From positions 22,010,860-22,074,859 of the forward strand of contig NC_135244.1 of assembly GCF_947623445.1 (NCBI RefSeq): a stretch of 64,000 nucleotides of DNA, given 5' to 3'. This DNA comes from Clavelina lepadiformis. Its lineage: Eukaryota; Chordata; Ascidiacea; Aplousobranchia; Clavelinidae. The notes under the pieces are model-generated. The model did no database searches, had not been told where the DNA came from, and saw only the letters and a list, made by a program, of their open reading frames with translations. The translations under genes were made by a program, and so were the position numbers. Positions within the stretch are counted from its first letter, which is position 1. Every line of letters starts with the position of its first letter. Shown in pieces: positions 5,695-63,980 of the stretch.

Positions 5695-7443
5695 TCAAAT
5701 GTGGACTTTCATGTGACTTTTCAAATTGCTGCTTTGCGAAAATGATTTACAGCAAACATCGCATTGATAAGGGCGCTCTCCAGTATGGACTTTCATATGT
5801 TTCTGCAAATTGCCATTATGCAAAAATAATTTACAGCAAACATCGCATTGATAAGGGCATTCTCCAGAGTGGACTTTCATATGAGACTGCAAAGTGCTGG
5901 TTCGTGAAAATGATTTCAAACAAACATCGCATTGATAAGGGCGTTCTCCAGTGTGGACTTTCATATGTTTCTGCAAAGTGCTGGTTCGTGAAAATGATTT
6001 ACAGCAAACATCGCATTGATAAGGGCGTTCTCCAGTATGGACTTTCATATGAGACTGCAAATTGCTGCTTTGCGAAAATGATTTACAGCAAACATCGCAT
6101 TGATAAGGGCGTTCTCCAGTATGGACTTTCATATGAGACTGCAAAGTGCCATTATGCGAAAATGATTTACAGCAAACATCGCATTGATAAGGGCGTTCTC
6201 CAGTATGGACTTTCATATGACGATGCAAATTGCTGCTTTGCGAAAATGATTTGCAACAAACATCACATTGATAAGGGCGTTCTCCAGTATGGACTTTCAT
6301 ATGTTTCTGCAAAGTGCTGGTTCGTGAAAATGATTTACAGCAAACATCGCATTGATAAGGGCGTTCTCCAGTATGGACTTTCATATGACGATGCAAATGG
6401 CAATGCTGTGAAAATGATTTACAGCAAACGGCGCATTGATAAGAGCGTTCTCCAGTATGGACTTTCATATGTTTCTGCAAATTGCCATTATGCAAAAATA
6501 ATTTACAGCAAACATCGCATTGATAAGGGCATTCTCCAGAGTGGACTTTTATATGAGACTGCAAAGTGCTGGTTCGTGAAAATGATTTCAAACAAACATC
6601 GCATTGATAAGGGCGTTCTCCAGTGTGGACTTTCATATGTTTCTGCAAAGTGCTGGTTCGTGAAAATGATTTACAGCAAACATCGCATTGATAAGGGCGT
6701 TCTCCAGTATGGACTTTCATATGAGACTGCAAAGTGCCATTATGCGAAAATGATTTACAGCAAACATCGCATTGATAAGGGCGTTCTCCAGTATGGACTT
6801 TCATATGACGATGCAAATTGCTGCTTTGCGAAAATGATTTGCAACAAACATCGCATTGATAAGGGCGTTCTCCAGTATGGACTTTCATATGTTTCTGCAA
6901 AGTGCTGGTTCGTGAAAATGATTTACAGCAAACATCGCATTGATAAGAGCGTTCTCCAGTATGGACTTTCATATGACGATGCAAATGGCAATGCTGTGAA
7001 AATGATTTACAGCAAACATCGCATTGATAAGGGCGTTCTCCAGTATGAACTTTCATATGAGACTGCAAAGTGCCATTATGCGAAAATGATTTACAGCAAA
7101 CGGCGCATTGATAAGGGCGTTCTCCAGTATGGACTTTCATATGATGCTGCAAAGTGTAGTTTCGTGAAAATGATTTGCAACAAATCCGACATTGATATGG
7201 CTGCTCACCAGTGTGAGTCCTTAAATGAACATCCAAGTTTGATTTTTTTTTAAAAGATTTATTACAAATTGTGCAGCAAAAATGCTTTCCTTTGTCTTTT
7301 TCCTTAGTTGCCATCAAATAGCCAATATTGGTTTTAATGGTTTTGCAATTTGTCTTTTCTTTACCAGAGAATTTCAAAGCTGACAAAACTTGCTGGGGAA
7401 GTAAATGAATATGCAAAACTGTAAAAATTGTAGGTAATATCAA
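5695..7443 (-). CDS. C2H2 zinc-finger protein with 19 tandem fingers
   Basis: One long ORF of 582 codons. The first ~55 residues are finger-free, followed by 19 C2H2 fingers with classical linkers (HTGERPYQC), so a sequence-specific DNA-binding nuclear protein is expected. Fingers share the frame YQCDVCCKSFS and differ mainly at the DNA-contact positions (RTSTLQK, QSSNLHR, HNGTLQS, QHCHLHR). Fingers 4-10 and 11-18 have nearly the same order, so a block of seven to eight fingers was duplicated. No KRAB, BTB or SCAN domain is visible; such a domain could lie on an upstream exon. The first Met is at 7443, but Met44 at 7314 (MATKEKDKG) may be the true start, since residues before it look non-conserved. 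The protein ends directly after the last finger, and decayed fingers follow. The plus strand is also open across the repeats, as an artefact of the 84-base period. Confidence 0.8.
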   Translation of the reverse strand: MILPTIFTVLHIHLLPQQVLSALKFSGKEKTNCKTIKTNIGYLMATKEKDKGKHFCCTICNKSFKKKSNLDVHLRTHTGEQPYQCRICCKSFSRNYTLQHHMKVHTGERPYQCAVCCKSFSHNGTLQSHMKVHTGERPYQCDVCCKSFSQHCHLHRHMKVHTGERSYQCDVCCKSFSRTSTLQKHMKVHTGERPYQCDVCCKSFSQSSNLHRHMKVHTGERPYQCDVCCKSFSHNGTLQSHMKVHTGERPYQCDVCCKSFSRTSTLQKHMKVHTGERPYQCDVCLKSFSRTSTLQSHIKVHSGECPYQCDVCCKLFLHNGNLQKHMKVHTGERSYQCAVCCKSFSQHCHLHRHMKVHTGERPYQCDVCCKSFSRTSTLQKHMKVHTGERPYQCDVCCKSFSQSSNLHRHMKVHTGERPYQCDVCCKSFSHNGTLQSHMKVHTGERPYQCDVCCKSFSQSSNLQSHMKVHTGERPYQCDVCCKSFSRTSTLQKHMKVHTGERPYQCDVCLKSFSRTSTLQSHMKVHSGECPYQCDVCCKLFLHNGNLQKHMKVHTGERPYQCDVCCKSFSQSSNLKSHMKVHI

Positions 7444-7846: not shown

Positions 7847-8500
7847 TCAAAGTGTCATTATTTCTGAGGTCATGCTTTGTTGCGAACTTTCAAAAAAAAT
7901 ACAAATATAATGAGAAAAAAAAATTCGAAACAATTGTGCCTTCAACTTAAACGACTTCTCACAATTAGGACACTGATGTGGTAGCTTTATGCTGTGAATT
8001 GTCATGACACTGCAACCGTGTGCAACTGTGACACTGCAAATAACCGCTTTGTGTAAATGATTTGCAGCAATTGTCGCAAGTACTCTAAACACTGTGAAAT
8101 TTCATATAACACAGTCAATTGCTATTTTCTGAAAATGTTGTGTGAATATGATTAGCAACAAATTTGACATTGATAAATGCGCTCTTTAGTGTGGACTTTC
8201 ATATGACGCTGCAAACCGCTGTGTCATGACAATGATCTGTAGCTAACATTGCATTGAAAAGGGCTCTTTCCAGTGTGGACTTTCACATGATGCAATTAAA
8301 ACAACTTGCAACAAATCCGGCATTTTTATGGCTGCTTAACAGTTTGAGTCCTTCAATGGGGAATTCAAGTTTGATTTTTTTAGAAGACTTATCACAAATT
8401 GTGCTGCAAAAATATTGTCCTTTGTCTTTTCCCTCAAATATCCAATATTACTTTTAATTATTTTACAATTTTTGTTTTCTTTATCAGAAAACTTCAAATC
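7847..8500 (-). pseudogene. Decayed zinc-finger paralogue
   Basis: Segment 8340-8500 aligns by eye with 7228-7370, the start of the intact zinc-finger ORF, including the words for the TNIGYL-like leader. Segments 7940-8100 and 8110-8300 hold broken finger pieces on the same strand (HQCPNCEKSFKLKAQL and others) with stops between them. It is the remains of a tandem duplicate with most fingers lost. Confidence 0.6.
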
Positions 8501-58764: not shown

Positions 58765-61700
58765 TTAAGGCGAATGAGAGCTGCCTGGAAAGAATTTAAC
58801 TTGCTTGGAAAGAGTGGACTCAAACTGAGTAACTTGTACGATGGTCTTGTTCTTTTGGCGAACTTCTTCATTGACCTAAAAATTTAAAGTATTTGAAAAC
58901 ATATTCAGCTTTACACTCAAAATTAAAGCATTGTGAGCATTGCTTTGGAGCCGGAGCCCCGGAACCATGCATTTTCAACGGAGCTGGAGCTGGGACTGAA
59001 GCTCAACGAGAAATATTCAAATGGAGCTGGAACAGTAGCTGGAGCCAGTTGTTTTAAAAATAGCTCAGCGTCCGATGTATTTCATAAGATGCTATATGCT
59101 ACTACTATTGGCTGAATTCACATAATTTAACAGAAACTCTTCATAAAATTAAGAATTGTTGCCTCTTTGGCGCCAGCAGATATGATATGACAGATTTGAC
59201 AGCAGAGCAGTCACATGTTCATAGCTGCAACCGACGGTAAATGAAATGTTTTCTGTTCATTAATTGTGTTGTTTTGTTTGTGATTATTTTGAAACGTTGG
59301 ATATTCCAAATTGAGCGTTCATCATTAAACCTCAGTTTTTGATGTAATGGAGCCGGAGCAGTGGTATCAATGAGCTCCGGAGCTGGAGATGGAGCTAATT
59401 TATGTTAAAAGGGAGCTCCGGAGCTGGAGTTGGAACAATTTAACATTTACGCCTGCTCCAAAGCCCTAATTATGAGGATTTATATAGTTTATATAGCTTT
59501 AAGGTATATAGGCCTAGTAGACTCGCCTTACAAAGCATATCTGCCAAATCTTTCTGTTTGGCATATTTCATCATAACTTTACATAACGCAGCTGTATACC
59601 AAGAGCCGTTCCCATCTCGGTACGCTTTGTCACCTTAAACAAATTTACTTTAGGAAATAAATGTTTTGCCAAAACGTAATGAAAAGGTGAAATACAGTTG
59701 ATTATTTGTTTATCTTACCAAACTAGCCCCATACTTATTGATTAAATACAGGCGAAAAACTTTTTGCAAATAAGTACACTGGTCGGTTTACCTTTAGCAG
59801 TTGCAAAAGAAAGCAAAACATCAGCTTTATCCAGTGCAGTGCTGTCATCGTCTGCTTCCGTTTCATTCTTTAACCATTCTGAAAACAATACCTTTTGAAG
59901 AAATTGATTTGTAGACAAAGTCTACCATACAAACTCAGCCCAAATAAATTCATGGCAAAATTAGCTTATTTGGTCTTGAAGAAGAACTTGAGATTGTAAA
60001 CAAATATCACTGCATTAAATTACAAGTGAATAGTAACTTACTCAATGTGTTGAACTCGTAAGCACCGTCACAATCTCCATCTTCATCGGAGTCACGTGAC
60101 TGTGGAGAATCTATGACAAACAAAGCAAAAATATTTCTGTTTTCCATTTGCAAATTATTCTTAACACCTCAGAAATATTAGCAAAAATAGATAAATGATT
60201 TAAACCCCAGCAGTATCAATTTTTTGCTTGTTACGTTTTTGTACATACTACGGCAAAACTGAAGAAAGAATATCTTTGGTTTCCCGGCAAACTCGTGGCA
60301 CACCATAAACTTTTTGCACAAGTCTTCCATGAAAATTTTTTCCTCGTCTACGGATCGAAAATAATCCCTGTTGTTTTCTAAGAAAAATACACGTTTTAAC
60401 AGCTACAAAAACGTGGAAAATACGTTTCGTTACTTAAGTACGGACAGCTGATGAAGCAGCTCGAAATAGTTATTATTGGTTTCAATTTAATTTATAATTA
60501 TTAATTCAGTTTTTTAAAGACGAATTACAAAAGCACAAGTTCTCATTAACCTTGTCCGCCATGAGATCCAATATACACCAAGCTCATTGCTGCATCATTG
60601 TGCTTCGATAAATCTTTGATGAAATTGGTTACTACTTCCTCAATTTCCTTGATGAACAACATAACCAATTAATATCCTTAACACACCGTTGATTAAGCAA
60701 ATGATTTCTATGGTACACCCCAACGTTTCCGCACTTGAACGTGAACAAGCATTGAACATTGATTGAGAGAGGTTATGCAGCGGCATAGAAGCATGCTTTT
60801 GATAGTTATAAGGAAAAGAAATTGCTACAATAACACCTTCCATTTGTACTGAATACGAGTCTATAACGTAAAAGCTTTTAAATTTAAACATTATAGCCAA
60901 ATATGTTATAAAGACTAAATTAGACACTTACTTCTTTACAAAGATCTTCATTTAAGTCCACTTGAAATCCAAGTTGTTGTAGAAGTCTATCAACCATCGT
61001 TGTGTCTTTATTGGCTCCATTCCTGATTCGGTTTTCAAAATTTATGTTGTTTATAATCAACGCTCGGCTTTTACCACGATGTCGAACCGGGTATATCTAA
61101 AATCATCAAATGGCTATATTTTAGGAAAGTTTAAATTAACAAGCCTAACACCACGAAAGGAAAACAATAGTTCACATCATTATCTTCGAAGTGTTTCTGG
61201 TAAGAGGGGTTCGTGCACGGTTTGACGTCAATGTCGTCCGGTCCAGGATAGGAACCATCCAGAAATTTAAAATCTGCAGAAGATTCAAAATAATAAATTA
61301 AAATAAAATAACAAAAATAAATGAAAATAATAAACTTTAACTAAAATTTATTTTTTAGTTTTTTATGAACAAAATGTTTTCCATAAATAGCCTATAGCGT
61401 CAAAAACAAGAAAGGCAAGAAATAACTGAACAAAATTTTGCTCTCGACAATAAATAAAAGTTTAACTTGATATGTTTTAAAGCATATGTTTCAGTTTTAC
61501 CTTCACTCAACTTTCTTTGCTTCGTCGACCTTGATTCAGATGACCCTAATCCATAAAATGTAAGATTTAATTCAACTAAAAATAAAATAAACCTGCGGTT
61601 GATGATTCTCGAAGATGTCGCTTCCCAAAAGGAACTGGAGTATTTTTTAATTTACTTTTGGGGAAATAAAAACTCATGGTTAATAAAATAAGAGGGAAAC

Positions 61701-63980
61701 TTTTATTTAACGTTCAAACTACAAATGTTTTTACATGGTGTGTACTGTGTAGTATAGGGAATCTTCCAGAAAACTTCTTCCACACTCGAAAACAATTAGA
61801 GCTTGGATTATTTATTTTTAACTACTACAATAGACACCTTTAAAATAAATTTACTCTGTCAAAATGGTTGAATGGACGTGTAACAGGCATTTGGAAATCA
61901 GTGGTTAGTAACTCGAAAGGTACCATTAACAAACATTAGAGCGGTTGTGGCAACTGCCCTAAATTCATAACTCTTCAGTTGTTAGCATTATCCTTCTGAT
62001 CGATGACTCTTTTGTTTTTGAATTATCATTATATACTGCAAAAGAAAATTTTCCAGGTTTTGTGTCGCTTTTATGTCAAAATTAATCACTACTTTGAAAC
62101 ATCATCCAACTGACACATCAGTCAAACAGAAATGTTGCTGGATTGGTCTCCATGCTTATCAGTATAAAAAGGAGCCACAAAAACTGCTGTATCTTTGTAA
62201 CAGTCAATATCATGTTGTAATTACAGTGTAAGTACTGTACTGTATGTATGTAGACCTACACTACAGTTATCAACAGTTTTTTGACCCAATTTCATTTATA
62301 CATGTTTCAAATTCAAATCCTCACCAGAAGCAGCAGAATTATGTATTGAGACATCACGTGACGATCCCTCCTGATAGTAACTACCCGCCCCTTGCTTGAT
62401 GATCCTTTTTCCTGTTGTATAAAAATGTTTCGTATTTACATACAAAGTCCTAACCCTAGGTGAAGAAATATCGAAATATCCAAAACTTCCGTTTTCTGAT
62501 AAGTTTTCGCCGGGCTGGGCAAGTCGCACCGCGGGCCTCCAGTAACATGGATGCCAGCAAATGTGTTGTGCTGAACAAGGTTATTACTTCGTATATATAC
62601 ACGTCATGTACGTCATGCGTCATAGATACGCAGCAGTCAAATAAAATAAATCAGATGAAATCAGAGATTCCTGAACTTTCATGACCGTAAACTTTTATTG
62701 AACATAAATTTTTTCAACGCGGTGAGACAAAAATCTTTGCAAGTTCCCGGCGTTAAAATTAAGTTAATTAAATTCATTTGTTATTTTCTAAAATTAAAAG
62801 TTGTTTTTATAATTACTTGAGTTTCCTGCTATTACATCACCGACAGTCATTTTACCAGAATTGTTGATATCAACTCCGCTTCTTTTGCTTTGGTCTGCAA
62901 AACAACAATCACCAGTCACAAGAATGAAACGAAGAATAGCGAAAGTGGGAAGTCTTATTATGTATGTAGCCTAATTTATGCAAAAACTCACCGATAGTAA
63001 CAGGGCCATGTGCGCCAGCTATAATGTTGGAGTTATCGCAGACATTTCCGCTCACTTTGACTTTAGGTTTGTTACTGCAGTGAAAATAAAGCAAGTTATC
63101 AAACTTGAAAAACTAATGTCGATTTACTTTATGAATCTTCTCCAAGGACCCAAAATAAAACTGAAGCGAGACTTTCTGCATATTCTTTCTTGTATTTTGT
63201 AGTCCATGATTCACATGATTTATGGCATATAGGTATACATATGTTTTACAAGCTGTCTTGAGGATTGTAACCGCATTTATAAGGAGAAGCATCGACCTAA
63301 TAGCGTTTGAATGAGCGATAAAGTGACAAGCGCCCTGATTTGCATATAAGCTTGAAATAAAAGCTAGCAATGAATTACCAGGTGCCTTAGCCTTTTGTGA
63401 ATCGAGGATTACGTTTGTGACGTGATACTATAGCGACGTATAGCTAGCTAACATTTCTTTGCTTTGGCTTGAAGTACCCAGGAAACAAAACTAAGAATTT
63501 AGAACATACCAAACCCATGGGCCGTACATGAAGTATTCAGTGCGGTTCTTAAGCGAGCTGTTTAGACAAGAAATACAATCACATGTTACTTACTTATTAA
63601 TAGTGCTACCGGTTTAGCAAATTCATATTGAACAAAAACAACATGCTAGCACTTTATTGTCAAGTTATCATCTGTAGCTGTGCTCGCGACCGTTGCCACT
63701 CTTTAAAATAGTTTTCAATACATGGCAAATTTTTTTCAGAGGGACCTTTTATTGTTGATTCAATGTTTAGATGCGCTACCGACAAAACATTTTTGCATTT
63801 CGTGCGCCTCCAAAAAGCGCGGCGTCCAATGCGGTGGCATCGCTTTCATCAGCCTTAGGGTTGCCCTGGCTGCTACAGCAAATATGATCTATATTTACAG
63901 TTACGATACAGAAAATAAAAATTCAGCAATGAATGTAAACAGGACAACGAAATAAGTCAAATAATGTTTTTTTACCTCAT
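58765..63980 (-). CDS. Caspase with an unusual prodomain
   Basis: Fifteen exons: 63976-63980, 63510-63557, 62992-63074, 62817-62894, 62325-62411, 61501-61545, 61176-61273, 60932-61096, 60551-60647, 60249-60377, 60042-60110, 59792-59878, 59527-59633, 58765-58875; an optional 42-base exon at 61593-61634 keeps frame. Without it, 402 residues. Caspases are cysteine proteases cutting after Asp in cell death or inflammation. The p20 part has RGKSRALIINNINF, the S1 Arg (RNGANKD), the catalytic His (VYIGSHGGQG) and the catalytic Cys in PKIFFLQFCRN (usually QACRG). An acidic linker (SRDSDEDGDCDG) follows. The p10 part has YRDGNGSWYTAALC and ends VKFFPG. The ~120-residue prodomain shows no CARD or DED but has Gly/Asn-rich beta-like stretches (VKVSGNVCDNSNIIAGAHG, INNSGKMTVGDVIAG). 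The last intron uses a GC donor (AAG|GCGAGT), needed to give the conserved CKVNEEV. The start rests on ATGAG|GTAAAA at 63980 and is less sure. Confidence 0.87.
58942..59464. mobile_element. Probable MITE rich in GGAGCTGGAGC words, in the last caspase intron
   Basis: It begins GCTTTGGAGCCGGAGCC and ends GCCTGCTCCAAAGC, giving inverted ends of about 10-14 bases. 'ggagctccggagctggag' is repeated inside. The ends resemble CAGGGCTTTGGAGC hAT elements, but no target duplication was found. Confidence 0.5.

Follow-up and report, generated by a model that had tools for sequence, protein, structure and literature searches.

The caspase gene contained in a 64,000-nucleotide stretch of the Clavelina lepadiformis genome (the window, C5:22010860-22074859) was found to carry, ahead of its protease domain, a row of short exon-encoded units (A, B and C), and a further unit, D, of paralogous caspase genes on the same contig was found to be shared with NLR genes elsewhere in the genome. 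Both the homology of unit D between the two classes and its in-phase linkage were observed in the caspase and the NLR gene models. We consider it fairly probable that a short homotypic motif is common to NLR sensors and caspase effectors here, and that it is seeded in the way of fungal and bacterial amyloid signalling motifs. The window gene is best read as that of an initiator-type caspase, with a prodomain built from several short, beta-prone homotypic motifs in a row. The searches reported below covered the 209-Mb genome in 95 contigs.

The gene model of the window caspase was derived from splice signals and reading phase. It comprises 13 exons on the minus strand, from ATGAG at 63980 to the stop at 58765, and encodes 386 residues, with every junction in phase and all introns of the GT-AG type except the last one, which is GC-AG. 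Peptidase_C14 was matched at residues 142-376 (E=2e-42) and was the sole Pfam match above cut-off, the sole other match being Thioredoxin_8 below it (E=0.15). In a sequence search of the PDB, the 60 matches listed of 222 were caspases, headed by caspase-6 (E=3.5e-20). Both catalytic residues, His (in SHGG) and Cys, are present, identifying the protein as a caspase of the Peptidase_C14 family, and its QFCR variant also occurs in the caspase genes L013, L015, L020, L023 and L024. Units A, B and C make up residues 1-85, followed by a linker of ~56 residues and then the caspase domain; these 85 residues contain 11 Gly, 8 Asn, 13 Ser, 16 Ile+Val, 11 Lys+Arg and 6 Asp+Glu, with no Leu and no Phe. 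Gly/Asn-rich units, each on its own small exon, had been proposed for this place in an original prediction made from the letters of the window, and the minus-strand exons A, B and C were indeed located there. The repeat part of the prodomain is real, but the ~120 residues first ascribed to it have to be revised to 85 plus the linker. A segment quoted as PVTIGD is absent from the spliced protein, which reads PVTIDQ because the end of exon A (ATC-G) joins AC-CAA. For exon C, the paralogs fixed the frame, and an alternative reading (KGSSSKGRVVTI...) was discarded accordingly. Outside the gene model, an open stretch in intron 1 (GNPKADESDATALDAALFGGARNAKMF, window 63790-63890, minus strand) appeared ankyrin-like by eye.

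Units of the paralogs were located by low-stringency tblastn over fetched loci; a first tblastn search with the A-B stretch of the window had returned itself alone, and paralog-based queries were required. With order and phase unchanged, units A, B and C are found again ahead of paralogous caspases 0.7-1.1 Mb away on C5. For L013 (A-B-C) and L020 (A-B-D-C), in-phase models could be built that start at ATGAG and include the first caspase exon. The A-B-D-C units, linkers and caspase of L015 are in phase from unit A onwards, with a candidate ATGAG/GT exon 1513 bp upstream, and L023 has matches to A, B, C and the caspase in order, with an ATGAGGT site ~0.6 kb before unit A. Upstream of unit A, an ATGAG/GT site was present in all six genes inspected (the window gene, L013, L015, L016, L020 and L023). 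Since homologous exons precede paralogous caspases in the same order and phase, the units are beyond chance, and the observation of a unit-bearing caspase prodomain is confirmed.

That the unit exons belong with the caspase, as had also been supposed, is borne out by the single in-phase chain that splice signals give in the window and by the same linkage in L013, L015 and L020. It is therefore very unlikely that the caspase begins at a later ATG (61677, MSFYFPKSKLKN) and that the units form a separate transcript. This ATG does open a stretch of 29 codons closing at a GT; however, the three paralogs join units and caspase in one in-phase chain, and the MSFYF stretch was matched in the fetched loci at chance level, with E values of 0.35 or worse.

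The unit exons were further compared with their surroundings. Relative to L013, exons A-C differ at 4/254 sites in L020 and at 4/254 in L023, whereas the remaining aligned sites differ at 64/1010 and 57/1004, respectively. In L045 (C5:21390369-21393382), which carries A-B-D-C and in which similarity to L020 ends, by eye, at the linker exon, 11/254 sites of exons A-C and 64/1009 other sites differ from L013, the exons diverging nearly as fast as their surroundings. From this comparison, the units look constrained in the intact caspase copies but not in the truncated L045.

Unit D is present as an extra unit in two of the paralogous caspase genes, L015 and L020. With prodomain queries from L016 and L015, six copies of D were found genome-wide outside the C5 cluster (Table 1), and all six lie 0.4-3.8 kb upstream of a NACHT match on the same strand. 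The genome search for NACHT gave 137 candidates, 97 of which were scored, yielding 97 matches; the chance for a random place to lie within 4 kb upstream of one of these, on the correct strand, is ~0.0009. Reverse searches with the NLR units of C2 and of C4 each returned 9/9 matches (E<=10) at those six places or in the C5 cluster (L015, L016, L020 and L045), with best cross-matches of E=1.3e-4 (L016) and 5.5e-4 (the caspase gene L015) and the weakest at ~1-2. NLR and C5-cluster units share 33-62% identity over the aligned parts. Two NLR gene chains could be assembled in frame with fitting phases, namely L048 on C2 (leader MQDHQ..., D exon, one further exon, NACHT exon) and L047 on C4 (leader MLETT..., D exon, NACHT exon). 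In both, the D exon is of phase 1-1 and follows a leader of 27 or 24 residues, whose start codon was our choice, additional upstream exons being possible; no Pfam match was found in either N-terminus. A pattern of YYQEG codons gave 12 genome matches against 10 with its reversed control, and just six were true copies, so that the pattern is uninformative by itself.

The same short N-terminal motif is therefore found on NLRs and effectors within one genome, namely at six NACHT genes and on two caspases, L015 and L020. As D stands near the N-terminus of the NACHT genes and also on caspases, it has the distribution between sensor and effector by which NLR-associated amyloid signalling motifs are recognised. 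Sixteen units were measured, and their sizes (26-29 residues for A, 22-26 for B, 30-39 for C and 35-42 for D) correspond to the roughly 20-40 residues of such motifs.

The relations among the four units were assessed by profile-profile comparison, with column shuffles as control. Units B and D gave a score of 17.65, which was reached by 0/600 shuffles, and their similarity consists of a core of roughly G-[TVK]-[ML]-[NT]-x-[GR]-[DGE]. Because no D unit is seen in the window gene, its caspase is tied to the NLRs through unit B and through its paralogs, not through a D of its own. Presumably, the window gene, with A, B and C, uses the same NLR partners as its D-bearing paralogs.

A number of observations weigh against the reading of a homotypic motif common to NLRs and caspases. 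The D profile sees no D unit in the window gene, and hhalign assigned the B-D pair a low probability of 36% (E=0.00037). When compared with the two NLR units alone, B scored 13.63, with 5/300 shuffles as high, and C scored 8.25, with 103/300. A homology between C and D, apparent at 0/60 shuffles, was dropped when 8/600 reached its score of 13.52, which is not significant, and A-B, A-C, A-D and B-C were at chance (16, 9, 12 and 24 of 60 shuffles, respectively). The six D-NACHT places form two duplicate sets, on C2 and C4, and are not independent; several D matches, with E of ~0.1-2, were counted solely on their location; and D was detected upstream of just 6/97 scored NACHT matches, a figure that is a lower bound. 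The best NLR cross-match goes to L016, a locus (C5:21086000-21095999) in which A-B-D, at 7638-5826 on the minus strand, precede what looks like a short last exon (ENVFVNDERNKSTKENV) with a stop at 5826 and in which no caspase match was found downstream in the fetched stretch. L016 may encode an adaptor or decoy made of motifs alone, or it may be a pseudogene. Downstream of the L045 units, too, no caspase was found. Sensor and effector genes are not adjacent, the D-bearing NLRs lying on C2 and C4 and the caspases on C5.

The sparse occurrence of D among NACHT genes would also agree with exon shuffling among immune genes, in which case the units would serve as flexible linkers or as regulatory tails and lack a homotypic function. 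Zebrafish NLRs with several N-terminal peptide repeats of ~30 residues, shuffled among groups, offer a precedent, as described in passages of PMC4852459. However, the unit lies near the N-terminus, a signalling position, in both protein classes, the unit exons are better conserved than the surrounding sites in the intact caspase copies, and every genome match beyond the C5 cluster lies at a NACHT gene. We therefore give shuffling without homotypic function a small chance of being correct.

Whether the prodomain belongs to a known family was addressed by profile searches. No match to the CARD, DED or Death profiles was found in the spliced proteins scanned, and 0/27 of the genome-wide matches at E<=1 (CARD 5, Death 17, DED 5) fell within C5:20.9-22.1 Mb. 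Five other caspases served as positive controls, the same profiles detecting a death fold on each of them or nearby (C2:21520916, C5:2904176, C9:682370, C3:234091 and C3:239673). A CARD at C2:21.52 Mb and two DEDs at C5:2.90 Mb lie inside the caspase open frame, while a CARD at C9:0.68 Mb and Death domains at two genes at C3:0.23-0.24 Mb lie 1-5 kb upstream of a caspase on the same strand. A death fold split across small exons could escape the genome search because that search reads exon by exon. A hidden CARD or DED, the profile search for which had been put forward as a check on the original prediction, was found neither in the spliced proteins nor at the cluster and is disfavoured by these searches with same-genome controls; the placing of this prodomain outside the CARD/DED scheme is supported.

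The suggested link to RHIM did not hold. Pfam RHIM (PF12721) matched neither the unit proteins nor any place near their genes, and its genome search gave only two weak sub-cut-off matches, on C8 and at C4:9.1 Mb. The V/I-Q-V/I-G core, as defined in that prediction, is in none of the B units read, which have VDIN, IRLD, IQLD and VRVG. Although the hydrophobic rhythm of unit B is RHIM-like when compared by eye with the RHIM consensus (e.g. GIQLDKFDTLNL in L015), the missing profile match and core make a true RHIM prodomain, with the caspase in a RIPK/TRIF-like pathway, extremely improbable. No other Pfam family matched the units above cut-off, and NCBIfam gave no match at E<=1 for four proteins. 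Sub-cut-off Pfam matches to phage tail tip, FtsK N-terminus, TruB, Thioredoxin_8, CooC_C and META were inconsistent among paralogs and judged to be chance, as was the PDB match 2qv5 (15 profile positions, E=0.007).

On the preferred reading, a shared homotypic motif, ligand would cause the NLR to oligomerise, and the D units, one per NLR, would thereby be gathered into a seed. Through homotypic beta stacking, the caspase's row of motifs, soluble and disordered until then, would join this seed, most likely as a cross-beta or beta-solenoid (amyloid-like) assembly, and the crowded caspase domains would dimerise and be activated by proximity. We infer the NLR-caspase contact, the beta structure of the units and the expression of these genes. 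An amyloid nature of the unit assembly is likely, and it gains independent support from the sharing of D with NLRs; taken as a whole, the earlier interpretation of the prodomain is partly supported. More tentatively, and with somewhat less confidence than we would need to call it probable, the system may be an animal inflammasome in which an undescribed amyloid-type motif family stands in place of the death fold and one NLR motif seeds a multi-motif caspase row, as NWD2 seeds HET-S.

The sharing evidence is silent on fibre formation, and the homotypic NLR/caspase interface could instead take the form of a small folded beta domain or of a defined oligomer. The charge of residues 1-85, with 11 Lys+Arg and 6 Asp+Glu, and their lack of Leu and Phe would suit such an interface. 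However, units of 22-42 residues with few large hydrophobics and variable length are small for an autonomous fold, and some known NLR/effector motifs near this size form a beta-arch amyloid fold, according to parts of PMC8086366. We regard a folded interface as unlikely, though deserving some weight, and continue to favour amyloid-like stacking.

Table 1. Exons of the window caspase gene (positions in the window) and copies of unit D outside the C5 cluster (contig positions)
Feature	Position	Strand	E	Remarks
E0, start micro-exon ATGAG, 5 bases	63976..63980	-		Met-Ser with first base of exon A
Unit A exon, NKPKVKVSGNVCDNSNIIAGAHGPVTI(D)	62992..63074	-		homologs in L013, L015, L016, L020, L023, L045
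Unit B exon, QSKRSGVDINNSGKMTVGDVIAGNS(R)	62817..62894	-		core GKMTVGD aligns to the unit D core common with NLRs
Unit C exon, KRIIKQGAGSYYQEGSSRDVSIHNSAAS(G)	62325..62411	-		homologs in L013, L015, L020, L023, L045
Linker exon L1, SSESRSTKQRKLSE	61501..61545	-		phase 1-1
Linker exon L2, DFKFLDGSYPGPDDIDVKPCTNPSYQKHFEDND	61176..61273	-		similar stretches precede the caspase exon in L013, L020, L023, L024
Caspase exon P1, large subunit, SRALIINNINFENR	60932..61096	-		
Caspase exon P2, catalytic His (GSHGGQ)	60551..60647	-		
Caspase exon P3, catalytic Cys, QFCR instead of QACR	60249..60377	-		
Caspase exon P4, acidic inter-subunit linker, SRDSDEDGDCDGAYEF	60042..60110	-		
Caspase exon P5, small subunit, ADVLLSFATAK	59792..59878	-		
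Caspase exon P6, small subunit, NGSWYTAALCKVM, GC donor	59527..59633	-		
Caspase exon P7, C-terminus and stop	58765..58875	-		
D copy	C2:632415		1.1e-5	NACHT match 2.7 kb downstream, same strand
D copy	C2:303876		6.4e-4	NACHT match 1.1 kb downstream, same strand
D copy	C2:602959		0.12	NACHT match 3.8 kb downstream, same strand
D copy	C4:3464402		0.0011	NACHT match 0.4 kb downstream, same strand
D copy	C4:1627888		0.0079	NACHT match 0.4 kb downstream, same strand
D copy	C4:2648122		0.079	NACHT match 0.4 kb downstream, same strand

Further NACHT and caspase genes were seen beyond those described above. At C4:0.3-3.7 Mb there is a large array of dozens of NACHT genes, in three of which D was detected, and the C5 caspases at 20.88-21.58 Mb are interspersed with seven NACHT matches for which no D was detected. 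A sister caspase with QFCR, L024 (C4:18070000-18079999, at ~6490-6585 and 7940-8089), has another Gly/Asn-rich beta-like stretch upstream (e.g. SNVNITGGTFVQSSILSS), which was unmatched by the profiles of units A-D and hints at a wider diversity of Gly/Asn-rich beta-like caspase prodomains. Three caspase matches with equal scores are spaced by ~12.6 kb on C9 (442489, 455103 and 467716), and four lie ~4.5 kb apart at C7:2033027-2047243; either recent tandem duplications or assembly repeats would account for these series.

To our knowledge, the known animal signalling amyloids are RHIM and RHIM-like motifs. RHIM occurs in RIPK1, RIPK3, TRIF and ZBP1, and RHIM-like motifs are present in Drosophila; initiator caspases, for their part, are described as recruited through CARD or DED. 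A motif common to NLRs and caspases in a tunicate would bear on both subjects, and NLR-to-caspase amyloid wiring would become testable in an animal. Ascidian NLRs have been reported to be without CARD (in part of PMC11508797), and the amyloid inflammasome, if true, would explain how a route leads from such CARD-less NLRs to caspases. For Ciona, a DED-caspase, CARD-caspases and Ci-caspase X, with an unidentifiable CARD, are described in passages of PMC10923776. A 2025 review of fungal cell death states, in one of its passages, that metazoans show less diversity of signalling amyloids than fungi and bacteria do (PMC12881547), and in Kaur and colleagues 2021 the word 'amyloid' occurs in the references only (PMC8195603). 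Among openly licensed PMC papers (top results for the larger sets), no report was found of a motif of this kind, whether in tunicates or on caspases, nor, among such papers, one joining caspase prodomain, amyloid and RHIM.

The proposed system resembles several known ones in part. Like RHIM, the units would be short, beta-prone homotypic motifs of animal death signalling, but they are without the RHIM core or profile match. As in CARD/DED inflammasomes, an NLR sensor and a caspase effector have a common homotypic N-terminal module; here, however, this module is not a profile-visible death fold, whereas the profiles do see such folds on or near other caspases of the same genome. Compared by description, the repeats of zebrafish NLR-B30.2 proteins are alike in that several short exon-shuffled peptide units precede NACHT in each protein, and no occurrence on caspases is reported in the passages of PMC4852459 concerned. 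Bacterial NLRs and effectors share motifs of 20-40 residues, the effectors including caspase-like CHAT proteases, as set out in parts of PMC7889193 and PMC8086366. The BASS1-10 systems, with Bell, CHAT or TIR effectors, are similar, as far as their partial descriptions go, in having a motif common to the NLR N-terminus and the effector, but they are neighbouring gene pairs, unlike the D-bearing genes here. In Podospora anserina, NWD2 has one motif repeat, which templates the two-repeat row of HET-S (passages of PMC4344463). On that account, the likeness to HET-S/NWD2 lies in a single short NLR motif before NACHT and an effector with several related motifs, the NLR and C5-cluster units being moderately alike in sequence. 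In contrast to HET-S/NWD2, the effector in C. lepadiformis is a caspase instead of a HeLo pore former, its motifs are N-terminal instead of C-terminal, the host is an animal, the D-bearing NLRs and caspases lie on different large contigs, and known profiles are unmatched.

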